IMG/VR virus record: IMGVR_UViG_3300029922_000183
Location: 1 to 36,397 of that record
DNA length: 36,397 nt
Direction: 5' to 3' (one strand)
Source of the DNA: a virus
This document shows positions 138-28,757 of this stretch, piece after piece. Within the stretch, counting starts at the first letter, position 1; each line of letters begins with the position of its first letter. The position numbers and the translations under genes were made by a program. The notes under the pieces were generated by a model. It did no database searches. It saw only the letters and a program-made list of their open reading frames with translations, and was not told the origin of the DNA.

Positions 138-210
138 AGGGGTGATGGCGACGGTAGTCTAGCTGCCTTTGAAGCAGTGAATGAGGGTTCGACTCCCTCC
201 GCCCCTGCCA
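138..210 (+). tRNA. tRNA-Gln(TTG)
   Basis: The acceptor strands AGGGGTG and CGCCCCT pair with one wobble. The anticodon stem GCTGC/GCAGT encloses loop CTTTGAA, giving anticodon TTG. The T-arm is GAGGG-TTCGACT-CCCTC, the discriminator is G and CCA is encoded. G73 and a weak 1-72 pair agree with glutamine identity. The D-arm is irregular and short, which is the only weak point. Confidence 0.85.
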
Positions 211-218
211 AGTTTTAT

Positions 219-293
219 GCACCCCTCGTTCAGTTGGTAGGACGCCTGTTTCGTAATCAGGGGACATCGGTTCGAGCCCGATGGGGTGCTCCA
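219..293 (+). tRNA. tRNA-Thr(CGT)
   Basis: Acceptor GCACCCC pairs fully with GGGGTGC and CCA is encoded. The anticodon loop TTCGTAA gives CGT, decoding ACG. The T-stem ATCGG/CCGAT is perfect. The anticodon stem has a T-T mismatch at 31-39. The G1-C72 and C2-G71 pairs together with G35-U36 fit threonyl-tRNA synthetase identity. Confidence 0.92.
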
Positions 294-344
294 AGTTGTA
301 AGGTGCAAACTAAGTAGCTGATAACTGGTGGGCTCCAATCTCAG

Positions 345-355
345 TATTAGAGATA
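345..355 (+). promoter_or_regulatory. leaderless-type -10 box before the HNH gene
   Basis: TATTAG lies 4 nt before the ATG at 355 and there is no Shine-Dalgarno sequence. This is one of at least six similarly placed boxes in the window; transcription would start at or next to the start codon. No clear -35 box is seen. Confidence 0.4.
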
Positions 356-987
356 TGAGCTACAGTAACAACAAAAAAGCAAAGCAGTTAGGGATGCCCA
401 ATGGGACAGCGTGCAACCGTTTATTGAAGCTGGTCTTATTGGACTTGCTTCGAAGGTTGAAAACGAATTTCTGCTTTCGATGCAAAACAGAAATCCTCAG
501 TGTGGAGGATTTGAGCCTCGACCACAAAGAACCATGGTTGGACGCCACACCGGATTTGTTTTGGAATTTAGACAACATTGCATTCTCGCATCGCTCCTGC
601 AATATACGTGCGGCCCGAAGAGACCCTGCGAGATTGAGAGAGACTGTAAGACAACGGTGGTTGAATTCTACACCAAAAGGAAAATCGTGGTGCATGGGGT
701 GTAAGGACTTTCTTATACTTGACCAGTTCAACACCAACCGTACTCGGGTATCAGGGGTGCAGAAATACTGCATTAAATGTCGTTGTAATGGAATCGGAAG
801 AAAGAACACTGCACACCTTCGCAAGTATCAACGACCCTCGACGGCTGAATTGGAAGCAATGTTGATGAAAGAAGGCTACCGAGAGTTGGCTCAGAGATTA
901 AAGGTCAGTCACATGACAGTTCTTCAATGGGCGAAGGATGATGGGCTGACCCACATCCGTAGGAAAAAGTTTGCACCTGTCGTCTAG
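355..987 (+). CDS. HNH homing endonuclease with zinc finger and helix-turn-helix tail
   Basis: A 210-residue protein. The N-terminal part has a CxxC pair (FCFRC), then LSLDHKEPW, then LDNIAFSHRSCN, which together make the HNH metal-finger nuclease core (LDH, N, H..CN). A second CxxC pair (CMGC and CIKC) forms an additional zinc finger around a KFxxNRT-type segment, and the C-terminus (RELAQRLKVSHMTVLQWAK) reads as a helix-turn-helix. Such genes are selfish DNA that cut allelic sites lacking them. An upstream GTG at 328 is in frame, but ATG 355 follows a TATTAG box and matches the usual start of this family (MSYSNNKKAKQLG). The gene ends inside the downstream tRNA-Thr, whose D-arm supplies its TAG stop. 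Confidence 0.9.
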   Translation: MSYSNNKKAKQLGMPNGTACNRLLKLVLLDLLRRLKTNFCFRCKTEILSVEDLSLDHKEPWLDATPDLFWNLDNIAFSHRSCNIRAARRDPARLRETVRQRWLNSTPKGKSWCMGCKDFLILDQFNTNRTRVSGVQKYCIKCRCNGIGRKNTAHLRKYQRPSTAELEAMLMKEGYRELAQRLKVSHMTVLQWAKDDGLTHIRRKKFAPVV

Positions 988-1048
988 TGGCTTAGGACTC
1001 CTCCTTGGTATGGAGGGTACAGGGGTTCGAATCCCCTCAGGTGCTCCA
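973..1048 (+). tRNA. tRNA-Thr(GGT), copy 1, on a tRNA-Glu-like body
   Basis: Acceptor GCACCTG pairs with CAGGTGC and CCA is encoded. The stem CCTCC/GGAGG encloses loop TTGGTAT, giving GGT (reads ACC). The D-arm (GTCTAGTGGC..AGGAC), the 4-nt variable loop and the T-arm AGGGG-TTCGAAT-CCCCT resemble bacterial tRNA-Glu rather than tRNA-Thr. The first 15 nt overlap the 3' end of the HNH gene. Confidence 0.92.
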
Positions 1049-1056
1049 ATCTTAAC

Positions 1057-1132
1057 GCCGGGTTAGCTCAGTTGGTAGAGCATCTGCCTTGTAATCAGAA
1101 GGTCATCGGTTCAATTCCGATACTCGGCTCCA
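1057..1132 (+). tRNA. tRNA-Thr(TGT), copy 1
   Basis: Classic cloverleaf: acceptor GCCGGGT/ACTCGGC, D-arm GCTC/GAGC, anticodon loop CTTGTAA giving TGT (reads ACA), T-stem ATCGG/CCGAT, and encoded CCA. It closely resembles the standard bacterial tRNA-Thr body. Confidence 0.94.
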
Positions 1133-1148
1133 GTTTAGTTGTTTTGCA

Positions 1149-1224
1149 GATGTAGCATAGCGGTCAATGCGCCTCCCTTGTAACGAGGACGCCGTCAGTT
1201 CGAATCTGACCATCTGCTCCAGTT
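1149..1224 (+). tRNA. tRNA-Thr(TGT), copy 2
   Basis: Acceptor GCAGATG pairs perfectly with CATCTGC; D-stem GCAT/ATGC, T-stem GTCAG/CTGAC, and encoded CCA. The loop CTTGTAA gives TGT, the same anticodon as the tRNA just upstream but on an unrelated body. A C-C mismatch closes the anticodon stem. The boundaries may be off by a few bases. Confidence 0.88.
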
Positions 1225-1235
1225 TGAGGTACGAT

Positions 1236-1373
1236 ATGAGAGTTATCAGCATCGCGTTGTACCGATTTGCTCAGGCGCTGTCTTACGTTCTACCTGAGTC
1301 GATATGGGAACCAGTGACCTATCCAATCGACCGATTGCGTTGGTGGTTCGAAAAACATGCACCTGTCGTCTAG
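1236..1373 (+). CDS. small hypothetical protein ending inside a tRNA gene
   Basis: A 45-residue ORF between two threonine tRNAs. GAGG lies 6 nt before the ATG at 1236. The sequence has an amphipathic N-terminal half (MRVISIALYRFAQALSYVL) and an aromatic C-terminal half (RLRWWFEKH). No family is recognised. Like the HNH gene, it ends in the residues APVV and takes its TAG stop from the D-arm of the following tRNA-Thr(GGT). A longer ORF from 1167 would start inside the upstream tRNA and was not chosen. Confidence 0.45.
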   Translation: MRVISIALYRFAQALSYVLPESIWEPVTYPIDRLRWWFEKHAPVV

Positions 1374-1434
1374 TGGCTCAGGACTCCTCCTTGGTATGGA
1401 GGGTACAGGGGTTCAAATCCCCTCGGGTGCTCCA
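1359..1434 (+). tRNA. tRNA-Thr(GGT), copy 2, near-identical to copy 1
   Basis: It differs from 973-1048 at only a few positions: TTAGG to TCAGG in the D-arm, TTCGAAT to TTCAAAT in the T-loop, and CAGGTGC to CGGGTGC in the acceptor, which leaves a G-T pair. The anticodon loop TTGGTAT and encoded CCA are kept. It looks like a recent duplication; the T-loop change removes the usual G57. Confidence 0.9.
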
Positions 1435-1443
1435 ATTTTATGG

Positions 1444-1456
1444 TATTGTTCTTCTA
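1444..1456 (+). promoter_or_regulatory. leaderless-type -10 box
   Basis: TATTGT lies 6 nt before ATG 1456 and there is no Shine-Dalgarno sequence between the upstream tRNA 3' end and the start codon. The spacing would place the transcript start at the ATG. Confidence 0.35.
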
Positions 1457-1674
1457 TGAGTACATTGACGTGGGAAGAACGAAACCAGCGGATTAAAAAG
1501 GAACAGCTTACTGAAGAAGAGTTGGGGACTTTAGTAGGCTGTGCTGTAACCGGAGTGCGGAGATTCTGGGGTCATGGAGCAGAGTATGAAATCCGCTTCG
1601 ATGATGGTCGAACGCTCTACATTACCAAGAGCGACTACACCAACGATGTAGTTTGCATGTTCAAAGAGTTTTAA
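1456..1674 (+). CDS. hypothetical small protein
   Basis: A 72-residue protein that starts MSTLTWEERNQR. A charged helical N-terminus is followed by a compact beta-rich part (GCAVTGVRRFWGHGAEYEIR, then FDDGRTLYITKSDY). The second part has the look of a small barrel or SH3-like fold, but no family is recognised. The start is set by ATG 1456, next to the -10-like box. The gene begins 21 nt after tRNA-Thr copy 2, in the same transcription direction. An orphan tRNA-like 3' tail (GGCTCCA) follows its stop. Confidence 0.6.
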   Translation: MSTLTWEERNQRIKKEQLTEEELGTLVGCAVTGVRRFWGHGAEYEIRFDDGRTLYITKSDYTNDVVCMFKEF

Positions 1675-1737
1675 GCTACGAGTCGTGGCTCCAGTTTCCG
1701 TATTAGTGAGTATTAGTGAGTACGAGGTACTGACTAA

Positions 1738-1929
1738 ATGGGTAAGAAAGTTGAAAAGGGGTTGTGTTGGGAGTTGGATGATTCGGAGTGTGATATCAAC
1801 GCCCCCTCACCGCATTTCACGGATGACAGTAGCGAACGTGAGAACGACTATCTGTACGGGACGTTTCCCGTGCTGATTCCTAAGAGGCCACCTTCAAGGT
1901 TGCAACCTCCGAAGGAACCAAAAGAGTAA
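1738..1929 (+). CDS. hypothetical small acidic protein
   Basis: A 63-residue ORF starting MGKKVEKGLCWELDD, rich in Asp, Glu and Ser, with a proline-rich end (RPPSRLQPPKEPKE). GAGG is present about 10 nt upstream of the ATG. The spacer before it holds a tandem duplication of GTATTAGTGA at about 1700-1719. No family is recognised. A second ORF from 1685 in another frame is lower quality and overlaps it. Confidence 0.5.
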   Translation: MGKKVEKGLCWELDDSECDINAPSPHFTDDSSERENDYLYGTFPVLIPKRPPSRLQPPKEPKE

Positions 1930-1930
1930 A

Positions 1931-1986
1931 TCGCGCAATATAAGTGGCGCGATTCAGGTTTTAATTGCGTGATTCGGAATCGCGCC
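1931..1986 (+). other. candidate H-type pseudoknot
   Basis: Two long helices interleave: TCGCGCAAT (1931-1939) with ATTGCGTGA (1964-1972, one G-T pair), and GGCGCGATTC (1946-1955) with GAATCGCGCC (1977-1986, perfect). The order S1, S2, S1', S2' is that of an H-type pseudoknot, or of two alternative hairpins. The same bases can be read as direct repeats of AATCGCGC and GCGYGATTC. It covers a possible TTG start at 1965, so a translational switch is possible. Confidence 0.45.
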
Positions 1987-2144
1987 ATAACGCCGCTTGT
2001 GGCAAGCAAGCCACTTGGGTTCGTCACACGCAGTTTGCCGGTACTCATCCTTTCTGCACTGAGTGTGCAAAGAAGGAAGATGATTTTGGTGAAGAGTCCA
2101 GCTATGTGGTTTGGGAGGAGCTTTTACATGAAGTTGCTCAGTAG
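1965..2144 (+). CDS. putative small zinc-finger protein
   Basis: A 59-residue reading frame starting at TTG 1965 with AGG 5 nt upstream. Near the start HNAACGKQATWVRH and then HPFCTECAKK give a Cys..CxxC zinc-finger pattern; the rest is acidic and helical (WEELLHEVAQ). No ATG is available, so the start is uncertain. The frame continues beyond the TAG at 2142 without another stop until 2316 (next entry), so this could be the front half of one gene with an in-frame amber codon. Confidence 0.45.
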   Translation: MRDSESRHNAACGKQATWVRHTQFAGTHPFCTECAKKEDDFGEESSYVVWEELLHEVAQ

Positions 2145-2318
2145 TTGGTTCTTCTTCGTGCCTCCATTCACGATCCTGCCTCGGTGGAAGTTGGCAGTTA
2201 TGCGTCAGTGGCTGTGGAGGTATCAGAGGTATACACAGCCGGGAGTTCGTGGATGTCCTATGAATGGGGATGCTTTCGGTTGTATCGGATTTTGGATGAG
2301 GAAGCTTGTCAATTTTAG
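2145..2318 (+). CDS. reading frame continuing past an amber codon
   Basis: Fifty-seven codons in the same frame as the preceding zinc-finger ORF, beginning with TTG directly after its TAG. It encodes plausible protein (LRASIHDPASVEVGSYASV, then SSWMSYEWGCFRLYRILDEE). It ends with TAG at 2316-2318, the base before the tRNA-Thr acceptor at 2319. It may be a separate gene with a TTG start, the readthrough part of the upstream gene, or the tail of a gene broken by a nonsense mutation. TAG is a real stop elsewhere in the window (thioredoxin), so general recoding is not supported. Confidence 0.4.
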   Translation: MVLLRASIHDPASVEVGSYASVAVEVSEVYTAGSSWMSYEWGCFRLYRILDEEACQF

Positions 2319-2394
2319 GCCGGAGTAGCTCAGTTGTTAGAGCGCCGTCTTGGTAAGACGGAGGTCACGGGTTAGAACCCCGTCTCTGGCTCCA
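2319..2394 (+). tRNA. tRNA-Thr(GGT), copy 3
   Basis: Acceptor GCCGGAG/CTCTGGC, D-arm GCTC/GAGC, perfect anticodon stem CCGTC/GACGG around TTGGTAA, T-stem ACGGG/CCCGT, and encoded CCA. This is the normal threonine body. The T-loop reads TTAGAAC instead of TTCGAAC, so the near-universal C56 is A, which could weaken the elbow contact with G19. Confidence 0.9.
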
Positions 2395-6586: not shown

Positions 6587-6603
6587 ACTGAAAGGTAATG
6601 TCC

Positions 6604-8814
6604 ATGTCTGTACAGTCCATTGTTTTGCGTCGTTCGAACAAGGTTATACTCCCGGTTCGGAACACCGTGTTTGTAGCCAAGTCCCCTGTGTCTCAGGCCC
6701 TTGTTGCTACTTTCAATCTGAACATTCAGTCTCTCGGCTACACCCTATCTGCCGATGCAATCAAGGCTATCTTGAAGTTGGGTGTGACCTCGGCCACTCT
6801 TGTGTTTGATGAAGTCCTGTCGAGCCTCAAGGAAATCAAAGGCGTACGCAGTTACAGGCCCATGTACCCGAACTTTCCGAAGCAGGTCATCGAGGCTTTG
6901 GATGCAGAACTGTACCTCAACGCGACGATGCACTATTTCAGCTTCTTGCTGGTTGACCTCACGGGTGACTCCAACAAGATTTGGTTGCCGAAGTATGCGA
7001 AGGATAAGCGTGAGCCACTTGACGAGAAGATTGAACTGCGTGTGCTCGGCGTGGCCGACAAGGTGGCTGTTGACATCCTGACCGACCGTATCGCTACGAG
7101 CAACACATCCCTCTCAGCATCGGACAAGGACGACTTGCGTACACTGCTTACCAGTGGGTATGGGCGGAACATTGACGACATGCTTTCGCGGATTAGCAAC
7201 AAAGAGAACCTCGCCTTCGTGAGTTCCATCATCTTGTCGTCGGGATCAGCAACTGACATCACTCCATATTTCCGCACGGCCACCGACATCCTACGTTTGG
7301 CGACCGCGATGAGTGGTGGTGACGTGTCGCTTAAGGACGACTCCAAGTTCAAGAAGTTCAAAAACTCAGAGCGTCGGTTCTTACTTGGCCTGTTGGAGCC
7401 TATCGGTAACAAGGTTGAGGACATGCTCCGCTGGCGCGAGCGTTGGGTGCGTCTTGGTCATCCACTGCATCCGGGTGAGTCTGCTAAGCGGTTTCCGACC
7501 ACGGCTCGGGCGTTCACCATTCTCCGTAACAATGAACATGTGGACACGTTCCGCACACAGGTGGAGTCCGCTGTTCGCTCCGGACATGTACTTCAGGCTG
7601 TGACGCTGTTGACTCAGCATCCGGGTGAGTTCGCTCGTCGGCTCGACCACGTGTTACGTCAAGCCCCCAACGCTCACACCCAGCTTCGTGTTGTTGATGC
7701 TTTTTTGTCAGTGGCTCACGAGGTCTCAACCCCGGTTCTGTTGCAGGTACTCGCTCACTTTGAGCATCGTGATGAAACTGACCTGCGTGTTGTGTTCCCG
7801 AAGGGGAACGTGGCGAAGGTTATGTCTCTGGATAAGCCCTTGGCGAAGCTGCCAAAGATAATCACTAATGCTGTCTCTGTTGGTATCGAGTCAGTCCTGT
7901 TGTCTCGTTTCTCAGCATTGCCGGATATGGGTAAAGTATATCTCGACCCGGCATTGCAGGATGTTCTCTTACCGTTCTCGCAGCGTTCGGCCAACAAGGC
8001 TCTCCGCACCTTGGTGCGTGGCTCCAAGTTGTCCTTCGGTGACGAGAAAAACACCATTCGTTTCTTCATCTGGTGGAAAGACGAAGATAAGTCCGATAAT
8101 AGCTTCGACAACGGACGGGTTGACCTTGACCTCTCGGCGTGTGCCTATGATGAGAATTGGGTGAGCATGGGAGCGGTGACGTATTACAACATGCGTGAGC
8201 AGTACGCAGTTCACAGCGGTGATATCACTTCGGCACCGAAAGGCGCGAGTGAGTTCATCGACGTGGATATTGCGGGGGCTGTTAAGGCTGGTGCGCGTTA
8301 CATCGTTCAGACGGTTCACAGCTTCACCGGCCAGAAGTTCTCTGACGTGCCGGAGGCTCTCGCTGGATTCATGCTTCGTGATAAGCCCCAGTCTGGTGAG
8401 GTATACGACCCTCGTACTGTTGTTGACCGGGCGGATGTGACGACCGAGGCCACCTCTGTTGTGCCGATGATTATCGACATCGTTGACCGCAAGGTTATTT
8501 GGGTTGATGCAGCGATGACAACTGGAGGTAGCCGTGGTTACCGTTATTTCTCTCGTGGCAACAACGTAGCTTCAACCCGTGGTACAATTGAATTGTTGGG
8601 TAAGGCGTTCACCAACATTCACAAGCCGACTCTGTACAGGTTGTTAAGTCTCCACGCAGCCGTGCGTGGTGAAGTAGTAGCTACCAAGGAAGAGGCGGAT
8701 GTGGTGTTTTCGGTGGAAGCCGGTACTCCTTTTGAACTCGACCGCATCGCTTCCGAGTTCATGGCAGACGCCGTAAAGGAATCTGCTGTGAAGCGGGAGG
8801 CGGTGGCAGTCTAA
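6604..8814 (+). CDS. large helical protein with C-terminal TerD-like domain
   Basis: A 736-residue protein. ATG 6604 is preferred because AAAGG lies 8 nt upstream; ATG 6598 would leave only 2 nt. Residues 1-460 are mostly helical, including repeats such as HPGEFARRLDHVLRQA. Residues about 470-680 look like the TerD beta-sandwich: FFIWWKDED, then RVDLDLSACAYD around residue 507, then VTYYNM, HSGDIT and ARYIVQTVHSFTGQKF. TerD proteins bind calcium and belong to tellurite and stress-response systems. Helical-plus-TerD proteins also occur in bacterial loci proposed to act in RNA repair (SCO0854/MXAN_6230-type), which this one resembles from memory; a search is needed. It sits between structured RNA elements, and the window also has an RNA ligase. 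A capsid or tail role seems unlikely. Confidence 0.65.
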   Translation: MSVQSIVLRRSNKVILPVRNTVFVAKSPVSQALVATFNLNIQSLGYTLSADAIKAILKLGVTSATLVFDEVLSSLKEIKGVRSYRPMYPNFPKQVIEALDAELYLNATMHYFSFLLVDLTGDSNKIWLPKYAKDKREPLDEKIELRVLGVADKVAVDILTDRIATSNTSLSASDKDDLRTLLTSGYGRNIDDMLSRISNKENLAFVSSIILSSGSATDITPYFRTATDILRLATAMSGGDVSLKDDSKFKKFKNSERRFLLGLLEPIGNKVEDMLRWRERWVRLGHPLHPGESAKRFPTTARAFTILRNNEHVDTFRTQVESAVRSGHVLQAVTLLTQHPGEFARRLDHVLRQAPNAHTQLRVVDAFLSVAHEVSTPVLLQVLAHFEHRDETDLRVVFPKGNVAKVMSLDKPLAKLPKIITNAVSVGIESVLLSRFSALPDMGKVYLDPALQDVLLPFSQRSANKALRTLVRGSKLSFGDEKNTIRFFIWWKDEDKSDNSFDNGRVDLDLSACAYDENWVSMGAVTYYNMREQYAVHSGDITSAPKGASEFIDVDIAGAVKAGARYIVQTVHSFTGQKFSDVPEALAGFMLRDKPQSGEVYDPRTVVDRADVTTEATSVVPMIIDIVDRKVIWVDAAMTTGGSRGYRYFSRGNNVASTRGTIELLGKAFTNIHKPTLYRLLSLHAAVRGEVVATKEEADVVFSVEAGTPFELDRIASEFMADAVKESAVKREAVAV

Positions 8815-8822
8815 AGTTTCTT

Positions 8823-8880
8823 GACTATCACCCTCTAATTAGAGGGGCTATTGAAGCCCTTCCTACTAAGGGCGATAGTC
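8823..8880 (+). ncRNA. divergent RNA element 4 masking a ribosome binding site
   Basis: The closing stem GACTATC (8823-8829) with GATAGTC (8874-8880) can extend by one pair into the A of ATG 8881. Inside are a palindromic hairpin CCCTCT-AATT-AGAGGG (8831-8846) and GCCCTT-CCTACT-AAGGGC (8856-8873). The core words CTATTG and AGCCCTTCCT match elements 1-3, but the right half AGGT..TGCTYT is absent. The AAGGG that would bind the ribosome is locked in the second hairpin. Confidence 0.6.
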
Positions 8881-9504
8881 ATGGTATTTTACACGGTATA
8901 CAGAACTCAGAACATCACAAACGGCAGGTATTACTTCGGCGTCCACAAGACTAGGAACCCGTATGATGGGTACCTTGGGTCGGGAAAAGTGCTCCGGACT
9001 GCGGTTAAAAAGTATGGTGAATCCTCGTTCATCAAGAACATATGTTTTGTCTTCGACAACCCTGAAGACGCTTTCTCCAAAGAGTTTGAATTGATTGAAT
9101 CGTATCGCGAAGACCCGTTGTGCTATAACCTGAGACAAGGGGGTAGCGGGGGTTTCGACTACATCAATCAGGCGGGGCTATCACCGGGATTTAACTACAT
9201 AAATGCCAACGGACTGGCTGCTGACAACAGGTTAAACCCTAAGCGAATTGAAGCGGTCAGGGCATGTTTGGTGGCACACCCGCGCTCTCACCCTTGTTCA
9301 GAAGAAACAAAACTCAAGTTACGGAAGGCTTTGGAAGGTCGGATATTGGGTGAACGTACCCAAGAGACCAGAGAGAAGATACGAGCCGCAAACAAAGGCA
9401 AGGTTCTATCTGAGGAGACTAAAGAAAAAATACGACAATCTCGATTAAATCGTGGTATTATTAGACATTGCGCGGCTATTGGAGCCCTTCCTTCTAAAAA
9501 TTGA
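8881..9504 (+). CDS. GIY-YIG homing endonuclease with NUMOD3 repeats
   Basis: A 207-residue protein. The N-terminal FYTVYR and RYYFGVHKTR are the GIY-YIG catalytic strands, followed by GYLGSGKVLRTAVKKYG and a catalytic-type Glu in EFELIESYR. The C-terminal half has tandem NUMOD3 DNA-binding repeats (SEETKLKLRKAL, QETREKIRAANKGK, SEETKEKIRQSRL). AAGGG lies 8 nt before ATG 8881, inside the element-4 hairpin; an upstream in-frame TTG at 8851 lies within that hairpin and was rejected. The final residues AAIGALPSKN are translated from the left half of RNA element 5, so the gene has no spacer from the array. It is a mobile gene inserted into the RNA-element array. Confidence 0.9.
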   Translation: MVFYTVYRTQNITNGRYYFGVHKTRNPYDGYLGSGKVLRTAVKKYGESSFIKNICFVFDNPEDAFSKEFELIESYREDPLCYNLRQGGSGGFDYINQAGLSPGFNYINANGLAADNRLNPKRIEAVRACLVAHPRSHPCSEETKLKLRKALEGRILGERTQETREKIRAANKGKVLSEETKEKIRQSRLNRGIIRHCAAIGALPSKN

Positions 9505-10728: not shown

Positions 10729-10740
10729 TATTAGTCTACA
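10729..10740 (+). promoter_or_regulatory. leaderless-type -10 box before the helicase
   Basis: TATTAG, 5 nt, then ATG 10740, with no Shine-Dalgarno sequence. The string AGTATTAGTCTACATG differs by a single base from the thioredoxin start region at 3518-3532. TTGATA lies 20 nt upstream as a poor -35 candidate. Confidence 0.5.
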
Positions 10741-13526
10741 TGCAACTGAATGAAGAACAGATAGCCGCAGTAGAACACCCACTCGGGCAACCAGCTTGTC
10801 TCATCGCCGGAGCCGGATCAGGCAAGACTCGCGTTCTTACCGAAAGAGTAAAATGGCTTATCGCTCAAGGGATTCCACCTAGAAAGATAGCGGCGATAAC
10901 CTTTACTAATAAGGCCGCAAACGAATTATTAGACCGGCTTCAACTTGATGGTGCCTCCTTCGATGTCCCCAAAGTATCCACCATTCACTCTATTGCCCTC
11001 TCAGCGATACGCCGTGACCCGGTTGGTTTTGGTCTCCAGCAAAAGGTGACACCGCTGGACGATTATGACCAGAGTCAGATGATTCGCCGGATTGTAGAAC
11101 GGACGGTTGATGTTAAGGAAAAAGGTATCAGCCTTGGTTCTTATGTGTATGGTTTCCTTGATAAGGTGGGCTATCACCGCGCTCGGGGTCTCGGGTTTTG
11201 TGTGGACTACACCGATGAGGTTCACGAGCAAGCGTTGGTTGCCCACGCAGGGCACCACGCTCTTGAGCCGTTTGATTTGCAGATTTGGAAGCTGTACGAA
11301 GCTGAAAAACAATCTTGTGGTTCGATAGATTTTGACGACATGCTTTGCCTGTTTAACCGTCGCTGTGAGCAAGACTCAGCATGGAGAGCCCAACTACAGA
11401 AGGCATTTGATGTTGTGCTGGTTGATGAGGCACAGGACTTGTCTGTTCCGCAGTGGGGGGTAGTTAACGGGCTTCTCGCTCCGGCTAATCCAAACCTAAT
11501 GACGGTGGGAGATTTGAGCCAGTGCCAACCTCCGGGAACTAAGGTTAAGGTCACTACCTCCCTTTCAAGGGGTAGCGTCAAATCAAGGTTCGAATTGCGT
11601 AACATCGAAGATTTGCGCGACGGTGACTTAGTTCCTACTTGGCACAAGCGTGACCAAATATCCTATCATTCAGGGCGGAAAATAAAAGTAGCCCACCGCC
11701 CCTATTCAGGGGCATTACTTAAAATCACCACTGAAACCAGTTCGACTGAATGCACCCCCAATCACTGGAATTGGGTGAGATTCAATAAAAACACAACAGG
11801 AAAATACATGGTGTATCTCATGTATCGTTCTGATTTGGGGTTTAGAGTGGGTCTTAGCATTTTTAAGCGCAGTACAGGGAAGGGCACTACAGGTAGTTAT
11901 GGGCTCTCCTCTAGGTTCACTCAAGAAAAGGCTGATAAGGCTTGGATTTTGGGCGTCTATGACACTCGACAGGAAGCGGAAGCATGGGAAGAAATCATCT
12001 CACTAAAATATGGCATCCCTGAGTCCCTTTTTGAAGCTACAGTGTGCTGGCACAAAACTGATGAGCTAATTAGGCTAATCTTCTCTCACGCTAACCCTGA
12101 AGGGGGTCAGCGTTGCTTATCAGACCACGGTCTTATTTTTGAACAACCGATTCTGTCTCCACGTGCAGACGGGTTTATAGGTAGAAGTTGGCGTGGGTAC
12201 TTCAAAACAGCAGCGGCTAACATCCTGCCGGGATTGATGGACATCCCAATTGAGGGACGGAACAAAAGCGTACCTATTATTGCTTGTCCATCTAGGCACT
12301 ATGAGGGGTTAGTCTACTCCCTAGATGTTGAAGAAGAGCACACGTATATAGCTGATGGGTTAGTCGTAGGGAACTCCATCATGGGATTCAATGGGTCTGC
12401 ACCACACCTTCTCAAGGAGTTTTCAGAGGGGTGGAGAGGGCACACACCCATACTGTATCGTATCGCACGCAACCATCGCAGCCTTCCGCGCATCGTATAT
12501 CTCGCTAACCACATTCAGTCAAAGATGACTGACACCATTCCACTCAAGATGCAAGTCTTCCGTGGTGACTCGGATAACAAGGGCACCATCGAACTAACTC
12601 GTGCTTCGATGCCCCTTGACATCGCACTGATTATCGCCGGAGAGATTTCCAAAGATAACCAGCGTAAGAAGGATCAGATTCCATATAAAGAGAACTGCAT
12701 CCTTGTTCGCAGTGCCCGTCAGATACCTGACCTTGAGAGCGCACTGGTGCGTCATCGCGTCCCCTATCAGATACGCGGGGGTCGCGGACTTCTTCAAACA
12801 GAAGAGATTCGTGATGTGCTTTCATACTTGAGGCTTGCCACCAACCCCAAAGATTTTACTGCTCTCGCTCGTGCAGTCACCGTACCCAAGACAGGTGCTG
12901 GTGATGTGACGTTGGAAAAGATTCGCAAGACGGCCAATGATAAGTTCGGCGGTGACTTGATTAAGGGCTGCACCTCTGTTGACAAGTTGTCAACGTTTGT
13001 AATGGCGTTGGAACGGTTTCAGAAGTTCGGTGACTATCCGGTTCAGGCTCTTGACCAAATCATTGACTACATGAACTATAAGAGCTATGTTTCCAACAAG
13101 TACAAGAAGGAACCCGACAAGATAAAAACCAAACTGGAAAACATCGACCGCTTCAGGGAGCTTGTACGTGGTCTTTCCGAAGATCATAAGATGTCCACTG
13201 AAGACCTTGTATTCCAACTTACTATCGACCGGGCACGTGAGGATGACAAGGATGGTATGGTCACGGTGTCCACTATCCACTCGGCAAAGGGGCTGGAGTG
13301 GCGGAGGGTTTATGTGACGAATGTAGTTGAAGGTAGTTTACCTCATCGGTTTTCAATGGGGAGTGAGGCCGAAATTGAGGAGGAGCGCAGACTTTGGTAC
13401 GTGGCCGTGACTCGCGCTAAAGACGCCCTCACCATTTGTGTACACTCCATGGAGCAGAACGAGAGCAACACTCGGAGAGTAACACCCAGTCGGTTCTTGT
13501 CAGAGATTGGAGTCATCAATGAGTGA
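10740..13526 (+). CDS. UvrD/PcrA-type superfamily 1 helicase containing an intein
   Basis: A 928-residue precursor; removing the 284-residue intein leaves about 644 residues, near the UvrD/PcrA norm. Motif I is AGAGSGKT (Lys29), motif Ia is AITFTNKAANEL, motif II is VVLVDEAQDL, and motif III GDLSQ is split from SIMGFNGS by the intein. Later come NHRSLPRI (motif IV region), TVSTIHSAKGLEW (motif V) and YVAVTRAKD (motif VI). It is a 3'-5' ATP-driven DNA helicase for replication, repair or recombination. Activity should depend on protein splicing, because the intein separates motif III from its following Ser. The start has a leaderless-type box. The stop overlaps the next gene. Confidence 0.95.
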   Translation: MQLNEEQIAAVEHPLGQPACLIAGAGSGKTRVLTERVKWLIAQGIPPRKIAAITFTNKAANELLDRLQLDGASFDVPKVSTIHSIALSAIRRDPVGFGLQQKVTPLDDYDQSQMIRRIVERTVDVKEKGISLGSYVYGFLDKVGYHRARGLGFCVDYTDEVHEQALVAHAGHHALEPFDLQIWKLYEAEKQSCGSIDFDDMLCLFNRRCEQDSAWRAQLQKAFDVVLVDEAQDLSVPQWGVVNGLLAPANPNLMTVGDLSQCQPPGTKVKVTTSLSRGSVKSRFELRNIEDLRDGDLVPTWHKRDQISYHSGRKIKVAHRPYSGALLKITTETSSTECTPNHWNWVRFNKNTTGKYMVYLMYRSDLGFRVGLSIFKRSTGKGTTGSYGLSSRFTQEKADKAWILGVYDTRQEAEAWEEIISLKYGIPESLFEATVCWHKTDELIRLIFSHANPEGGQRCLSDHGLIFEQPILSPRADGFIGRSWRGYFKTAAANILPGLMDIPIEGRNKSVPIIACPSRHYEGLVYSLDVEEEHTYIADGLVVGNSIMGFNGSAPHLLKEFSEGWRGHTPILYRIARNHRSLPRIVYLANHIQSKMTDTIPLKMQVFRGDSDNKGTIELTRASMPLDIALIIAGEISKDNQRKKDQIPYKENCILVRSARQIPDLESALVRHRVPYQIRGGRGLLQTEEIRDVLSYLRLATNPKDFTALARAVTVPKTGAGDVTLEKIRKTANDKFGGDLIKGCTSVDKLSTFVMALERFQKFGDYPVQALDQIIDYMNYKSYVSNKYKKEPDKIKTKLENIDRFRELVRGLSEDHKMSTEDLVFQLTIDRAREDDKDGMVTVSTIHSAKGLEWRRVYVTNVVEGSLPHRFSMGSEAEIEEERRLWYVAVTRAKDALTICVHSMEQNESNTRRVTPSRFLSEIGVINE
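11523..12374 (+). mobile_element. intein in helicase motif III, with a GIY-YIG-like insert
   Basis: Residues 262-545 of the helicase. Block A is CQPPGTKVKV with Cys1. Block B is seen as STECTPNHWNWV (TxxH form). The end is VYSLDVEEEHTYIADGLVVG-N with Ser+1 in the host protein. The penultimate residue is Gly instead of the usual His, a known but minority variant. Between blocks lies KYMVYLMYR..FRVGLSIFKR, then SRFTQEKADKAWILGV, then RQEAEAWEEIISLKYGIP. That segment resembles a divergent GIY-YIG-type domain rather than the common LAGLIDADG insert; whether it still cuts DNA is unclear. Confidence 0.88.
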
Positions 13527-13798: not shown

Positions 13799-14061
13799 TG
13801 AGCTACTTCGAGATGGACGAGAACCTCACATCCGAACAACTTCAGGCTATGCGTAAGTGGGCGAACCTTTATGGTCGCACATGGAAGTCGAAACTCCGCG
13901 ATGCTTGGATGACCGGCGACTATGCTGGTTTCGAGGGTAGCAATTTTCTTCAGCAGCTTCGCAACGCCTACGGCCCCTCTTGGCTCATACACTTCAATCT
14001 TTCAGTAGTGGAACGGATGCATCTTCCTTCGGCGCGGTTAGTGAGGGATTCCTATGCCTGA
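13798..14061 (+). CDS. hypothetical helical protein
   Basis: An 87-residue protein starting MSYFEMDENLTSEQLQAMRK. It has a helical first half with WANLYGRTWKSKLRDAWMTG, the motif GSNFLQQLRNAYGPSWL in the middle, and a helical end. The LTSEQLQAMRKWANLYGRTWKS..L pattern is shared with short phage proteins of unknown function. Its stop lies inside the next gene. It heads the transcript that runs into the NAD+ genes. Confidence 0.65.
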   Translation: MSYFEMDENLTSEQLQAMRKWANLYGRTWKSKLRDAWMTGDYAGFEGSNFLQQLRNAYGPSWLIHFNLSVVERMHLPSARLVRDSYA

Positions 14062-14176
14062 GTTTTTAATCGTTGACATGCACACCCATATCGACCCCCA
14101 TGAAGAGTTGGAAGCAATGGTCGGCCACGACATGAAAATCATCCCCATTACATTGGGGTTGGAAGAGGAAGATTGA
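14054..14176 (+). CDS. micro-protein upstream of the NAD+ genes
   Basis: Forty residues starting MPEFLIVDMHTHIDPHEELE, acidic, with several histidines (HTHIDPH). It overlaps the previous gene by 8 nt and its TGA overlaps the ATG of the adenylyltransferase gene (TGATG), which favours translational coupling. No family is recognised. Confidence 0.5.
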   Translation: MPEFLIVDMHTHIDPHEELEAMVGHDMKIIPITLGLEEED

Positions 14177-15120
14177 TGCAAAAACCCAGTTATGGTGTAC
14201 TCGTCGCCCGGTGCCAAGTGCATGAATTGCATGAAGGGCATCTCTGGTTGTTCAACGAAGTCAAGGCACGTAACTCGCGTGTCATTATTTTCCTTGGCGT
14301 CAAACCAATCGGAGCCACTTACAAGAACCCTCTTGACTTCGAGACCCGCAGGGCGATGATTCAAGCAATTCCCGCCTACAAGGATTTCAATATCCTTCCA
14401 CTTCCCGACATGCCGACCGATGAAGCGTGGTCGAAGGTTCTGGATGGTCGCATCCGTGAACTTTGTGATTATGGCGAAGTGACGCTATACGGCTCTCGTG
14501 ATTCTTTCACAAAGCACTACACCGGCTCGTTTACGCCCGTTGAACTGACCATGCCACACGACCTTCGCAGCATCAATGGTACGGAGATTCGGGCTGGCCT
14601 CACTAATCAAATCATTGCCTCCGCCGACTTCCGGGCCGGGGTCATTCATGCCATCACCAATCTCCGTCCGCAGGTCAAGGCGACCGTGGACATCGTGATT
14701 ACCACCGAGACCCTGCTATCGTGGTCGCATCCCGGCCCTGACGCCGCTAGGTTGACGCGGTTCTTTCTCCTCGGCCAGAAGCCCGGTGAAACGTGCTGGC
14801 GCTTCATCGGGGGTTTCTCAGAGCCCACCACACCTTCCTACGAATTCGATGCGGCTCGTGAAGCCATGGAAGAGACCGGCTTGCCGATTGAAGACCTGAA
14901 GTATATTGGCTCAACTCTGGTTCCGGACTGGCGTTGGGCAGGGGAGCCCGACCAAATCAAGACGCTCGTTTTTGTTGGAACGTCCATGACCATGGGGGGT
15001 AAGGCCAACGACGACATCGCCAAGGTGAAGTGGGTTAAGGCCAGCGAACTCTCCGAGTCGTTGTTCAGTGATGTTCACAAACCCATTTGGCACATCGTCA
15101 AAAAGCACTTCAATCTGTAA
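14176..15120 (+). CDS. bifunctional NMN adenylyltransferase / Nudix hydrolase
   Basis: A 314-residue two-domain protein. The N-terminal half has the nucleotidyltransferase HxGH motif (HEGH, residues 19-22) in the strand-helix start GVLVARCQVHELHEGHL, and a C-terminal RSINGTEIRAGL like the ISSTxxR motif. It would join NMN and ATP to give NAD+. The C-terminal half is a Nudix domain with REAMEETGL at residues 228-236; the Nudix box is stretched before its first Glu. This architecture is known from bacterial NadM-Nudix enzymes and from phage KVP40. It lies 12 nt upstream of the nicotinamide phosphoribosyltransferase gene. The ATG overlaps the upstream TGA. Confidence 0.92.
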   Translation: MQKPSYGVLVARCQVHELHEGHLWLFNEVKARNSRVIIFLGVKPIGATYKNPLDFETRRAMIQAIPAYKDFNILPLPDMPTDEAWSKVLDGRIRELCDYGEVTLYGSRDSFTKHYTGSFTPVELTMPHDLRSINGTEIRAGLTNQIIASADFRAGVIHAITNLRPQVKATVDIVITTETLLSWSHPGPDAARLTRFFLLGQKPGETCWRFIGGFSEPTTPSYEFDAAREAMEETGLPIEDLKYIGSTLVPDWRWAGEPDQIKTLVFVGTSMTMGGKANDDIAKVKWVKASELSESLFSDVHKPIWHIVKKHFNL

Positions 15121-15132
15121 AGGGGGCAACAT

Positions 15133-16569
15133 ATGGCACTTTCGAAATTGTCGCAAGAGTTTGATGGTAGGGGAGACCTGTACAAATACTCCCACTGGCG
15201 GATGTACCCACCGGGCGCTCGACGCCTTGAATCGTACCTCGAATGCCGCATCGGTGCGAAGTATCACAAGACCGTGCCCTTTGGTCTCCAGTACATCTTG
15301 GAGGAATACTTCACCGGCAAGCGCCTTTCGAAGGATGGCATTCTTCGTCGCCAGTGGAAGATTGACCAAATGATGGGACCGGGAACCTTCAACATCAAGG
15401 GTTGGCTGGATATGCTCGAAGCACACGATGGCGCTCTACCCATTCGCATCAAAGCGATTCCTGAGGGCACCGTATTGGACAACTCCAACGCTCTGCTGGT
15501 GCTCGAAAGCGTTGACGACCGTTTCATCTGGTTCAACAACTTCGCTGAAACTGCCATTATGCAGTCGTGGTATCCCACCACCGTCGCCTCGGCTCAGTTC
15601 GCCAAGCGACAGATGTTCCTCGAATTCCTGTACAAGACAGGCGACCCCGGTCTCATCGACTACAAGTGGGTGGACTTTGGCTATCGTGGTGTGTCTTCGC
15701 AGGAGTCAGCGGCTCTTGGTGGTGCGGCTCACTTGCTCAGCTTCAAATCGAGCGACACGATGATTGCAGACGACTTCGTGGAAGCCTACTACCCCGATTT
15801 AACCGGCGCTCCACACACGGTGAAGATGGGCAGCGTTCCAGCCTCGGAGCACTCCACGACAACCTCGTGGGGCAAGGAAAACGAGCCTCGTGCTATCGGC
15901 AACATTCTGGAAGCGTACCCCACAGGTATTGTCTCCATTGTTGGCGACTCGTACGACTACGAGAACTTTGTTCGCGCCATCATCGGTGGTAAGTATCGCG
16001 ACAGCATCCTTCGCCGTGAAGGTGTGGTTGTGGTTCGCCCAGACTCTGGTGACCCGGCCACGATGGTCCTTCGCTCCTGCCAGTGGTTGGAAGAAAATTT
16101 TGGTGCCGATTACAACGACAAGGGCTACAAAGTTCTCAACAAGCACGTTCGTGTCATTCAAGGTGATGGCATTGACTACGACTCCGCTTACGAGATTCTT
16201 GCCACACTGGAGCGTTCCAAATACTCGCTGGACAACCTTACCCTCGGTGAGGGTGGCGGAGCACTCCAGAAGGTCAACCGTGACACACAGCGCACTGCTC
16301 TGAAAGCGTCGGCCATCGACATTGAAGGGGTGTGGCACGATGTGTTCAAAGACCCCAAGACCGACCCCGGCAAGGCATCGAAGGCCGGTCACCTCGCGGT
16401 AGTCTGTGTGAATGGGGTATACCGCACCATCCCCAAGCAGGAAGGTATCACCTACCCGCAGGATTGCTTGGTTCCTGTGTTCGATACTGGAAAGATTCTG
16501 AAGCGTTATGGCTTCGATGAAGTTCGGACTCGGGTTGTGGCAAACGACGGAACGGCGGAAGACTTTTAA
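15133..16569 (+). CDS. nadV: nicotinamide phosphoribosyltransferase (NAMPT)
   Basis: A 478-residue protein, the usual NAMPT length. Conserved blocks are DLYKYSHWRMYPPG (N-terminal substrate region), DFGYRGVSS, SVPASEHST with catalytic His240 (the His247 equivalent of the human enzyme), RPDSGDP for the phosphoribosyl group, and LGEGGGALQKVNRDT. It condenses nicotinamide with PRPP to make NMN, which the preceding enzyme turns into NAD+. AAGGGGG lies 8 nt before the ATG. The pair forms a complete two-step salvage route and is known in phages as a pathway that rebuilds NAD+ after host defences destroy it. Confidence 0.96.
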   Translation: MALSKLSQEFDGRGDLYKYSHWRMYPPGARRLESYLECRIGAKYHKTVPFGLQYILEEYFTGKRLSKDGILRRQWKIDQMMGPGTFNIKGWLDMLEAHDGALPIRIKAIPEGTVLDNSNALLVLESVDDRFIWFNNFAETAIMQSWYPTTVASAQFAKRQMFLEFLYKTGDPGLIDYKWVDFGYRGVSSQESAALGGAAHLLSFKSSDTMIADDFVEAYYPDLTGAPHTVKMGSVPASEHSTTTSWGKENEPRAIGNILEAYPTGIVSIVGDSYDYENFVRAIIGGKYRDSILRREGVVVVRPDSGDPATMVLRSCQWLEENFGADYNDKGYKVLNKHVRVIQGDGIDYDSAYEILATLERSKYSLDNLTLGEGGGALQKVNRDTQRTALKASAIDIEGVWHDVFKDPKTDPGKASKAGHLAVVCVNGVYRTIPKQEGITYPQDCLVPVFDTGKILKRYGFDEVRTRVVANDGTAEDF

Positions 16570-22427: not shown

Positions 22428-22889
22428 GTGTTCATATACAAAGTCACCAATAAGCTAAATGGTAAGGTCTACATCGGGAAGACTGTGCGTCCAGTTGACG
22501 TGCGGTGGGCACAGCATCTTTGGTTTGCTAAGATGGGTGGCGGGTGTCCTTATCTGGGTGCAGCCATACGTAAGTATGGTTCAGAGGCGTTTGAAGTAGA
22601 GCAACTAATTCAAGCTATAAGTGAAGACGAACTAAATAAGATGGAGAAGGGGTTCATCCAACAGTTTCAGTCGTACCGCCGAGAGTTAGGTTACAACTTG
22701 ACTTTGGGACAAAAGATACAAAATGCAAACTCTAAGACTTATGAATTTCTGTCCCCGACGGGGGGCACAGTTGTCATTACTAACTTGAAGGCATTTTGTC
22801 TGGAACAGGGGCTAAATGCTTCTCACATGAATTCAACCTATCATGGAAGTCGTAAACAGCACAAGGGGTGGACAAGATGCTCGATTTAA
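22428..22889 (+). CDS. GIY-YIG homing endonuclease
   Basis: A 153-residue protein starting at GTG with AGAGG 5 nt upstream. The N-terminal FIYKVTNKLNGKVYIGKTVR is a clear GIY-YIG core, with RWAQHLW (catalytic Arg) and MEKGFIQQFQSY (Glu). The C-terminal part has the sequence-reading SPTGGTVVITNLKAFCLEQG and HKGW pattern typical of phage homing endonucleases. It sits between a DUF6527-like gene and a structural gene and overlaps the latter by 13 nt, so insertion probably targeted this junction. Confidence 0.92.
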   Translation: MFIYKVTNKLNGKVYIGKTVRPVDVRWAQHLWFAKMGGGCPYLGAAIRKYGSEAFEVEQLIQAISEDELNKMEKGFIQQFQSYRRELGYNLTLGQKIQNANSKTYEFLSPTGGTVVITNLKAFCLEQGLNASHMNSTYHGSRKQHKGWTRCSI

Positions 22890-25223: not shown

Positions 25224-28200
25224 ATGGCGTTGTTTGGTTCGTATGCACCCCCCGGAGTTTACACAAGCGTGATTATTTCAGGCGGCGGGCAGCCGCTGTT
25301 CGGTTCCGCTCGTATCCCCGTCATTATTGGTGAGGGTCAACAGTCCTTCACTCAAAACAATGTGGAACTGTTTCGTGGCTCCTCCGCAGTCGCTGATCCC
25401 CAAGCAGTCAATGAGAATCTGTCTGACCAAGTCACCGGCACAACAAACACCTTTACCACAACTTATTTCCCTGTGGTTAACAGCGGTGGTACCGGCACAG
25501 TAACCACTGACCCCACACAGATTCAGGTAACAGTAGACGGCGTCCCAGCCACAGTAATTTCTTTGAATGGTACGACTGGTTCGTTTGTTCTGCAAGACAT
25601 TCCTGCTCTAGGAAGTAACCTTGTGGCAACCTACTACTTCCTGCGTGGCGATACCCTCATCTCCAATGAGAACTTGGCCCCTCAGATTCCGGTTTTCGCC
25701 AGTCTCACTGTCTCAGGAGCTTCATCCTCTTCAATCATCCTCGGTACAACGCTTCCCGGTGCCGTGGGTAACGAAGTCTCTCTCCAACTGGTCAGCACGG
25801 GTCCGGGTGTCACTGATTCTCTAGCAGTCTCAGGGTATGGCACCAACACCATCGTCATCAATATTCTGAAGACAGACTCTACCACAAGGACTGTTGTTGA
25901 TCTTCACAACCTTGTTGAAGCGGGTATTCTTACCCTCTCCGCTGGGTACCTTACAGCCACGACTCCGGTTGGTACTGGAGCCTTGTCCACTTTGTCTACT
26001 ACTCACCTAACTGGTGGGGCTGGCCCGAACTCCAACACTCAGTTCCAAGTCCATAATCTTCCAATTGTGGATGGTACAAACGGCGGTGTTGTGACTACAA
26101 GCCCAGCAAAGGTTACCGTAAAGGTCAATGGAGTCGCGGTCGCAGTTTCGGCTGTCGATGGTGCGGCTGGTTTGGTGACTCTTGTTAACCCGGTACCTTC
26201 TACTACTTCCACCTTTACCATCACGTACTTCACAAACACCTATCAGAACACCTACGATTTGCTACCGGCTAGTAATGTTGCCAGCATCGTTGAGGTTGGC
26301 CTCGGCCCAAATCGTGCTGACTTCATTCAGGATGTGGATTACGTGTTGGGTACTGATTCGAACGGCAATCCAATTCTCAACTGGGGCGCTTCGACCTCGA
26401 CTACAGTAGGAACCTCAAACTCCGCTGACACTACACCATTCGGCCCTGCCGACATCGTCACCACCTTGGTGGATGAACATGTGTACTTGCAGTTCGCTGG
26501 TACAGGCAACGGTAATACGGCGGTCTTCACACTTCCTGATGTTCCAACAGATGGTAGTGGTTTAGACAACCCGACTGACAACCCGAATCTAATTCAGGTT
26601 TATGTTGGCACCAACCCCTACCTTGCATATCAGGCCGGTGCGGTAAAGGTTGCTCGTGTGAACGGCGCTTCGGCACAGGTCACTTTGTACAATATCCCTT
26701 CTGCTGGAAGCTATGTATATGCCAGCTACTATCGCAACACGTTGAATGACCACAGCTACACATTGAGCGTTGTCAATGCGGCTCAGTCTGGTCAGGGCAC
26801 TTACACAATTGCCAACGAGCTTGGTTATATCCTCCCTGTGGTTGCCAACAGCACCAACACGGTAGCAGCTTCCAACTTCGCAACAACCGGCATTGTCTAT
26901 CCACATGCGTTCTCGGATGCATGGGACGAGCCCAATGCTCCGAATGAAACCATCACTCTGACATTCAACAATGACGGTTCGACCACCACACCCGGTGTTC
27001 AGGCATCATTGATTACGCAGGGTATCACTTTCACCGCCACTACAACGGGGACAAGCGGCAACTCTGTAACCATCGCGTTTACTAGCGTTGGTTCTGCTGA
27101 TTCGGCAGCTATCACAGGGGGTGGCACCAATGCCCTAACAGTGGACATCACAACATCAGGTTCTGCAACCCGTACAACTGCTCAAATTGTGGCTTTGTTT
27201 GGTACCTACCCACCAACTACAACGGGAGGTGGCATAATCACCGCGACGGGTGGTTCATCGAGCAATGCAGCAATCGCTTCTCTTCTGCACTTGGCTGGTG
27301 GTATAAACCCAACCTCCGTCCCCTACACGCACAGCTATGCTGTTACCTCTTCCTTGGGTTCCAGCGGATCACACGGTACTGGGTACCTTGACCAGACATA
27401 CATCGACGCCACCACAGGCTTTAAGGTGACGATTGTCAACCCTGCTGATGCCTTGGGCTTTGGCTACACACAACTGCCTTCTCCTCAGTACGCTTTCGCA
27501 CCGGCAGACACACTCACTTTCACGACCAGCCAGTCCACTGTACGATACACGGGCTCTACTTACGTTCCGTTCGGACCTGCTCAACCCAACAACTTGATTG
27601 CCATCCCCGGCTTGACCACCAGTGTCGTTACGACCTTCGGTGCGTCTACGGGTGACACAGCAATTGTCAACACCTATAACAAGTCGGGCAGCGGTCCTAC
27701 AGTCGGTGAGTTCTACTACGTGACATTTACAGTAGCCAAGACCGCCGCTGATATGGCGCTCCAACTGTTCGACAATGAAGCGGATGCCTACACGGTTTAC
27801 GGTCAGCCAAGTGTGGTCAACCGCCTCTCCTTGGGTGTCCAGTTCTTGGTTGGTAACGGGGCTAACGTATTCGGTTGCATTCAGGTGCCTCAGCAACCCG
27901 GATTGAACACTGCGTCAGATGCAGATTTCATCTCGGCTATCCAATCGCTGACAACGAATCTGCCGGGTTACACAAAGAAGGCAGATGTTATTGTTCCTCT
28001 GAGCACAAGCCCCACGGTTCACCAGTTCTTGAGCCGCCAGCTTATCACTCAGGCCACCGCCCGTTACAAGGGTGAGGGTATCGGCTTTGTTGGTTACAGC
28101 CAATACACAACTTCAACTCAGGCCATTACCAATGCACAGGGCTTGGCAAACGGTCGTATGATTGCTATCGGCAACCCGGTTGCTGGTGTTCAGATTACGA

Positions 28201-28757
28201 ACAGCCAGACAGGCATTGCACAGGAATACGCAGTATCCGGCGAATTCATGGCAGCAGCGTTGGCTGGCCTGAATGTCAACCCAGCCAATGACGTAGCAAC
28301 ATCGCTTACGTTGCAGGATTTGGTTGGCTTCTCTCGTCTCCTCATCCGCTACGACGATGCAACCATGAACCTGATGGCTTCGCAGGGACTCGTTATGCTC
28401 ACTGACAACTCCGGTGCGTTGAGCATTCGTCACTACAAATCTACCGACCCGTCGAACCCGATTACCTCGGAACCGACATGCACTACTATCACCGATTATG
28501 TCCGTCAGCAGTTCCGTGGCGACCTAAAGCAGTTCATCGGTCGTAAGTTGGTAAGCAGCCTTGTGAACGACATCACGGCAGTCTGCAACGCCCGTCTCCG
28601 TTCACTGGTTTCGAATGAAATCATCAACGGGTATAAGAACCTGTCAGTTGTTCCTGACCCGAATGACCCGACAACAGTTGATGTCACTGTGACCTTCATG
28701 CCTATGTTCAGCTTGCTCTACATCAGTGTGACGTTTACCGTAACGACAACCTTGTAA
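25224..28757 (+). CDS. giant tail sheath protein with inserted repeated domains
   Basis: An 1177-residue protein, far longer than the usual 400-700 residues. The front (LFGSYAPPGVYTSVIISGGG) is a tail-sheath start, and the end (CNARLRSLVSNEIINGYKNL followed by VTFMPMFSLLYISVTFTVTT) is a sheath end. Conserved core parts include LLIRYDDATMNLMASQGLVM. Between them lie two kinds of repeated beta domains: type A (IQVTVDGVP..VISLNG at about 25500-25640, with copies near 26090-26240 and 26578-26740) and type B (about 25735-26013 and 27005-27305, sharing GNEV/GNSV..TNTIV..TRT). They probably form external decoration on a contractile sheath. GGAG lies 10 nt before the ATG. Confidence 0.85.
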   Translation: MALFGSYAPPGVYTSVIISGGGQPLFGSARIPVIIGEGQQSFTQNNVELFRGSSAVADPQAVNENLSDQVTGTTNTFTTTYFPVVNSGGTGTVTTDPTQIQVTVDGVPATVISLNGTTGSFVLQDIPALGSNLVATYYFLRGDTLISNENLAPQIPVFASLTVSGASSSSIILGTTLPGAVGNEVSLQLVSTGPGVTDSLAVSGYGTNTIVINILKTDSTTRTVVDLHNLVEAGILTLSAGYLTATTPVGTGALSTLSTTHLTGGAGPNSNTQFQVHNLPIVDGTNGGVVTTSPAKVTVKVNGVAVAVSAVDGAAGLVTLVNPVPSTTSTFTITYFTNTYQNTYDLLPASNVASIVEVGLGPNRADFIQDVDYVLGTDSNGNPILNWGASTSTTVGTSNSADTTPFGPADIVTTLVDEHVYLQFAGTGNGNTAVFTLPDVPTDGSGLDNPTDNPNLIQVYVGTNPYLAYQAGAVKVARVNGASAQVTLYNIPSAGSYVYASYYRNTLNDHSYTLSVVNAAQSGQGTYTIANELGYILPVVANSTNTVAASNFATTGIVYPHAFSDAWDEPNAPNETITLTFNNDGSTTTPGVQASLITQGITFTATTTGTSGNSVTIAFTSVGSADSAAITGGGTNALTVDITTSGSATRTTAQIVALFGTYPPTTTGGGIITATGGSSSNAAIASLLHLAGGINPTSVPYTHSYAVTSSLGSSGSHGTGYLDQTYIDATTGFKVTIVNPADALGFGYTQLPSPQYAFAPADTLTFTTSQSTVRYTGSTYVPFGPAQPNNLIAIPGLTTSVVTTFGASTGDTAIVNTYNKSGSGPTVGEFYYVTFTVAKTAADMALQLFDNEADAYTVYGQPSVVNRLSLGVQFLVGNGANVFGCIQVPQQPGLNTASDADFISAIQSLTTNLPGYTKKADVIVPLSTSPTVHQFLSRQLITQATARYKGEGIGFVGYSQYTTSTQAITNAQGLANGRMIAIGNPVAGVQITNSQTGIAQEYAVSGEFMAAALAGLNVNPANDVATSLTLQDLVGFSRLLIRYDDATMNLMASQGLVMLTDNSGALSIRHYKSTDPSNPITSEPTCTTITDYVRQQFRGDLKQFIGRKLVSSLVNDITAVCNARLRSLVSNEIINGYKNLSVVPDPNDPTTVDVTVTFMPMFSLLYISVTFTVTTTL

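Follow-up and report, generated by a model that had tools for sequence, protein, structure and literature searches.

The gene pair and its setting

The window analyzed here, a 36,397-base stretch of DNA that makes up an entire virus record, carries two adjacent genes on the plus strand, one for a NadM-Nudix protein (P0001; 14176..15120) and one for a NAMPT of 478 amino acids (P0002; 15133..16569). A first-pass annotation had placed a complete two-step NAD+ rebuilding module at 14176-16569; its coordinates, the adjacency of the genes, and the 12-nt gap between them were all correct on checking, and both genes that it named are present, although in reversed order, with NadM-Nudix preceding NAMPT. 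The gap (15121..15132, plus strand; AGGGGGCAACAT) contains the NAMPT ribosome-binding site, and a purine-rich site of this kind precedes each gene of the pair. For NadM-Nudix, the ATG at 14176, with AGAGGA upstream, is the preferred start; an in-frame TTG lies one codon earlier, at 14173. A micro-ORF of 32 amino acids (14078..14176, plus strand; MHTHIDPHEELEAMVGHDMKIIPITLGLEEED) terminates in a TGA that overlaps this ATG (TGATG). It was not found in the two closest relatives and is possibly only a translational-coupling leader. The pair is under purifying selection (dN of 0.18 and dS of 1.8 against the closest relative, with dS near saturation), and its reading frames are intact in three contigs.

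Because the window encodes a tail sheath (25224-28757), a head maturation protease-like protein (33569-34435), eight tRNAs, and a UvrD-type helicase (10740-13526, plus strand) that contains an intein-like insert, we regard it as a fragment of the genome of a contractile-tailed phage. Megablast against GenBank found no near-identical phage; jumbo phages are among the relatives (Tunturi_5, 309 kb; LR756502, 642 kb).

Several other features of the window were recorded. GC3 is 0.65 to 0.66 in both genes of the pair versus 0.51 to 0.54 in the helicase and sheath genes, and the most GC-rich 2-kb block is 14001-16000. The intein-like insert of the helicase seems to occupy the same place in one relative (L004), while the helicase of another (L026; 645 amino acids) seems uninterrupted. 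The tail-sheath protein (plus strand) has 1,177 amino acids and a long N-terminal extension, with matches in its last 320 residues only. Six tRNA-Thr genes (CGT, three GGT, and two TGT) and one tRNA-Gln gene are packed into 2.3 kb (138-2394, plus strand), so that one amino acid is oddly overrepresented; the copies at 965-1054 and 1351-1440 are near duplicates. A protein of 738 amino acids (6598-8814, plus strand) matches phrog_33734 and also NCBIfam NF041916, the MXAN_6230/SCO0854 family of RING-domain proteins, with 448 bits (E = 7e-134), below the 600-bit cutoff; this bacterial RING-type family is unusual in a phage. Two ORFs (8851-9504 and 22428-22889) matched the "NAD synthetase" family phrog_447 weakly (E = 2.5e-4 and 2.7e-4, respectively); we rejected this assignment, as both are GIY-YIG-type homing endonucleases.

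Domains and active sites of the two enzymes

The second gene product matches solved NAMPT chains with an E value of 3e-107 and NCBIfam NF006629 with 490 bits, above the cutoff of 405, and its Pfam matches are NAMPT_N and NAPRTase. The catalytic His240 reported at first pass is indeed residue 240 of NAMPT, inside SVPASEHSTTTSWG, and the protein also keeps DFGYRG, D208, RPDSGDP, and the GGG loop (GEGGGALQKVNRD). In human NAMPT, the Asp that aligns with D208 recognizes nicotinamide.

The NARP1 enzyme Namat is homologous to NAMPT and has an aromatic "selectivity clamp" (F392 and Y396 in SpbetaL1), which was probed with the mutants F392G and Y396K (PMC12774641). By alignment and human residue numbering, the clamp positions were assigned to the last Gly of GGG and to the Lys of QK; the region reads GVGSYTYQYMTRD (Y, Y) in Felix O1 Namat versus GEGGGALQKVNRD (G, K) in the window's enzyme, and the two proteins are 28% identical. 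Because G and K stand where Namat has aromatic residues, P0002 is of the NAMPT type; by the same residues, its donor site is of the PRPP type and not of the ADPR-PP type.

The NadM-Nudix protein combines an NMN adenylyltransferase domain (residues ~1-160) with a Nudix hydrolase domain (residues ~165-314). Motifs of the adenylyltransferase half are R12, H19xGH22, and SINGTEIR139, and those of the Nudix half are GG212-213, R228-E229-xx-E232-E233, and D251-W-R253; the HEGH and REAMEETGL motifs that had been described as kept correspond to residues 19 to 22 and 228 to 236. The NadM half is weakly recognized on its own (Pfam CTP_transf_like, 0.0019, below the cutoff), and a profile of seven family sequences aligns the full-length Francisella NadM-Nudix protein 2qjt with an E value of 2.2e-24. 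An AlphaFold2 model (51 sequences) reached a pLDDT of 93 and a pTM of 0.85. When this model was compared with the PDB by Foldseek, the only full-length matches among those listed were 2qjt, 2r5w, and 2qjo, all bifunctional NMN adenylyltransferase/ADP-ribose pyrophosphatases. The VIA-align rows are mostly Nudix proteins, because the Nudix domain fills the list; among the matches listed, the same three structures were the only ones to span both domains. The ADPR-binding Nudix domains of TRPM2 and NrtR were also among the structural matches.

A scan of viral contigs and phage genomes yielded 85 NadM-Nudix loci, which group into 61 lineages at 90% identity. All 61 keep R12 and R139; H19 and H22 are nearly invariant, HxGH is present in most, and REXXEE is kept in ~90%. 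Two marks distinguish the subfamily. Two residues are inserted before HxGH in the nucleotidyltransferase motif (RCQVHELHEGH in the window's protein versus RFRPFHNGH in KVP40 NatV, which lacks the insertion and is 23% identical to the window's protein over the NadM half), and the Nudix box has D or T for its first Glu and is mostly one residue longer. In the window's protein, the box differs from GX5EX7REUXEEXGU ahead of REUXEE, by T for E and one extra residue, and the metal-binding REXXEE is intact. ADP-ribose is the likely substrate, although the Nudix box is noncanonical upstream of REXXEE.

Linkage, nrtR, and apparent exchange of the phosphoribosyltransferase

A NAMPT-like gene was found near NadM-Nudix in 57 of the 61 distinct viral lineages, within the stretch available for each locus. 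It is nearly always downstream on the same strand and mostly follows directly, often overlapping NadM-Nudix. In the 462-kb phage LR756500, a nicotinate phosphoribosyltransferase (PF17767 and PF04095; L008:8400-9587) takes the place of NAMPT, a few genes past NadM-Nudix. A YAcAr-SLOG gene lies between the NadM-Nudix and NAMPT genes, mostly directly, in about 10 lineages (L046, L063, L055, L057, L073, L083, L078, L064, L079, and L049), a Macro gene is near the pair in eight (e.g., directly after NAMPT at L065:7499), and a NADAR-like gene is near it in six (e.g., directly after NAMPT at L088:7566); for these counts, one representative per family was checked against Pfam and the rest were assigned by BLAST clustering. 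These neighbors in the relatives point to an ADP-ribose conflict, as a passage of PMC9503650 argues for NADAR near NadM/NadV. Probes for Macro, NADAR, SLOG, Nuc_deoxyri_tr2, and PncB had no match in the window or its flanking contigs.

The same NadM-Nudix subfamily occurs at 49 bacterial loci, many of them on long contigs with an adjacent NAMPT gene. Carriers of the pair include isolates and a 1.29-Mb contig with PspA and AAA neighbors, and chromosomal carriers belong to Bacteroidota, Ignavibacteria, and other groups; among the contigs counted as bacterial, some are short metagenome fragments and possibly viral in origin. NrtR is a known ADP-ribose-sensing regulator, and an nrtR gene (NUDIX plus NrtR_WHD) usually lies just upstream of the bacterial pair; its best NCBIfam match is the ADPR-responsive repressor, below the cutoff of that family. 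A full-length NrtR match was found at 27 of 39 distinct bacterial loci versus 1 of 58 distinct viral loci (LR756504) when judged within ~5 kb of the pair, or 36 kb for the window (Fisher P = 1e-13, with loci treated as independent despite shared ancestry). The 36-kb window and the sampled flanks contain no NrtR gene, so the enzymes are probably not under ADPR-responsive control from the viral locus while infection proceeds. In the NadM tree, phage and bacterial rows are intermixed, with nine label changes of which at least five are forced, which argues for several transfers.

The type of phosphoribosyltransferase beside NadM-Nudix varies. At eight loci (L007, L043, L045, L056, L062, L082, L086, and L092), it belongs to a divergent class with the motifs DFGDRAG, ALAHRN (replacing EHST), and GGGLRN, which Pfam NAMPT_N hardly recognizes; seven of these sequences form one clade with support of 100, and that of L082 is also of this type. 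The gene of L082 (5938-8574) is additionally interrupted by an intein-like insert within its active-site motif (RPD|SGD), and at another locus (L069:6038-8463), the NAMPT gene is split into two ORFs with an apparent endonuclease ORF between them.

The NadM tree joins the window to L025 and L026 (100/99). In the NAMPT tree, a quick version of which only strongly supported joins were used, L025 and L026 are together (96), and the NAMPT of the Tunturiibacter phage Tunturi_5 is the sister of the window's (SH-aLRT of 100). The pair of Tunturi_5 (gp218-gp217) has the same order; its NAMPT is 54% identical to the window's, while its NadM-Nudix is on a different branch and 41% identical. Between the window and L025, NadM-Nudix is 77% identical and NAMPT 45%, and the NadM-Nudix of L025 extends, through a longer C-terminal tail, past the start of NAMPT in that locus. 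The simplest reading is that the window's lineage had its NAMPT replaced at the junction of the two genes. Further pairs are discordant in the same way (NadM-Nudix versus NAMPT identity of 77% versus 39% for L032/L034 and 72% versus 31% for L043/L063). The phosphoribosyltransferase thus looks to have been exchanged repeatedly beside a conserved NadM-Nudix, and the window's NAMPT looks imported.

Proposed NAD+ rebuilding and competing readings

Some bacteria destroy their own NAD+ upon infection, and rebuilding it is a known countermeasure of viruses. In the NARP2 pathway, attributed to Osterman et al. in 2024, NAMPT and an NMN adenylyltransferase reportedly rebuild NAD+ from metabolites other than ADPR-PP. 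The match to NARP2 proposed at first pass agrees with our results: the clamp is in the NAMPT state, and the NadM-Nudix model matches only bifunctional adenylyltransferase/pyrophosphatases over its full length. Most likely, the locus is a two-gene NARP2-type NAD+ reconstitution module of a large tailed phage, of the bacterial salvage-operon type without NrtR. The sequence, the model of the fold, and the conserved gene linkage give good support to an enzymatic route from nicotinamide through NMN to NAD+, with a Nudix half that likely splits ADP-ribose.

Host NADases cleave NAD+ into nicotinamide and ADP-ribose. Given their conserved active sites and folds, NAMPT would convert nicotinamide and PRPP to NMN, and the NadM half would join NMN and ATP into NAD+. 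The Nudix half most likely hydrolyzes ADP-ribose to AMP and ribose 5-phosphate, which a host PRPP synthetase could turn into PRPP and feed back to NAMPT. The description of the module as complete therefore applies to the two catalyzed steps and not to PRPP, which would come from the host: Felix O1 Adps is a PRPP-synthetase homolog, and a probe with it found no Adps-like ORF in the window, itself a genome fragment, or in the flanks examined. The benefit would most likely be that NAD+ stays available in infected cells, including against NAD-depleting defenses, which would give the pair a counterdefense role.

The two genes may be auxiliary metabolic genes that raise the NAD+ pool for general phage metabolism (e.g., NAD-dependent ligase, ADP-ribosylation, or redox for dNTP synthesis) and have no specific part in defense, an account that we consider plausible but do not favor. 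General NAD+ support is a live alternative because chromosomes of Bacteroidota, Ignavibacteria, and other groups carry the pair too, as a salvage operon linked to nrtR. The KVP40 pathway was likewise described as NAD+ salvage, and no Macro, NADAR, or SLOG gene neighbors the pair in the window. However, the near-absence of nrtR at viral loci and the Macro, NADAR, and SLOG genes of the relatives fit a conflict over ADPR-based immunity better, and metabolic and counterdefense benefits may coexist. A different emphasis would make the Nudix half mainly a regulator of NAD+ levels or a degrader of signals (ADPR, cADPR-type signals, or NAD+), with signal removal outweighing NAD+ rebuilding. We consider this unlikely, since pure signal degradation leaves the NAMPT partner in 57 of 61 lineages unexplained, even though REXXEE is conserved in most of the family and ADPR-binding Nudix folds are among the best structural matches.

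The remaining readings concern the enzymes themselves. Namat is homologous to the window's phosphoribosyltransferase and is commonly annotated as NAMPT, so that NARP1-like chemistry, in which a Namat would make NAD+ directly from ADPR-pyrophosphate, had to be weighed. It is very improbable: the clamp carries G and K, identity to Felix O1 Namat is 28%, Adps (the other component of NARP1) has no counterpart in the window or the flanks examined, and NARP1 has no use for the partner, an NMN adenylyltransferase. We rejected a Namat identity on the clamp residues. That the genes are decayed or inactive and retained by chance is scarcely credible; the noncanonical spacing of the HxGH motif and the Nudix box might suggest it, but these departures are common to the whole subfamily, the frames are intact in three contigs, the catalytic residues are kept, and dN is well below dS.

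NARP2-type reconstitution, our preferred reading, places the locus among described systems. The Schizotequatrovirus KVP40 uses the same two enzymes (NadV and the NadM-Nudix protein NatV) in the same two-step route, but its genes are ~43 kb apart, whereas those of the window are adjacent. NARP2 shares the combination of NAMPT and NMN adenylyltransferase; the window's pair differs in its divergent NadM-Nudix subfamily. The locus is also an instance of the class formed by jumbo-phage NAPRTase-NTase pairs and NADAR/NadM/NadV neighborhoods, which are described in parts of PMC7824862 and PMC9503650, respectively; the former also cites the 2017 description of the KVP40 pathway as NAD+ salvage, and passages of PMC12300627 and PMC12028318 mention NARP2 secondarily. 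The basic finding is thus already covered by these systems. The sections of PMC7824862 and PMC9503650 consulted contain no description of nrtR loss or phosphoribosyltransferase exchange, and in the portions of the literature examined, we did not find the 57-of-61 linkage in this subfamily, the exchange, or the nrtR contrast described.

We tentatively propose, as a possibility and not as our firm expectation, that large phages of many lineages carry an NrtR-less version of the NAD salvage operon that ADP-ribose regulates in bacteria and repeatedly swap its phosphoribosyltransferase (NAMPT, the ALAHRN class, or nicotinate phosphoribosyltransferase) as host immunity or precursor supply changes. 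If so, NadM-Nudix would be the constant element around which viruses rebuild NAD+. Work on phage NAD+ reconstitution is recent and active, and the locus presents the NARP2-type pair as a linked, exchangeable cassette common to phages and bacterial chromosomes. It also offers testable contrasts, between pairs with and without the ADP-ribose-sensing repressor and between different phosphoribosyltransferases beside the same NadM-Nudix.

The bacterial nrtR-nadM-nudix-nampt operon, as in Sporocytophaga (the 1.29-Mb contig, L134) and Arcicella aurantiaca (L112), has the same subfamily and gene order as the window but mostly carries the NrtR repressor upstream, which the phage lacks. In A. aurantiaca, an AbiH abortive-infection gene lies directly downstream of the operon (L112:8326-9411).
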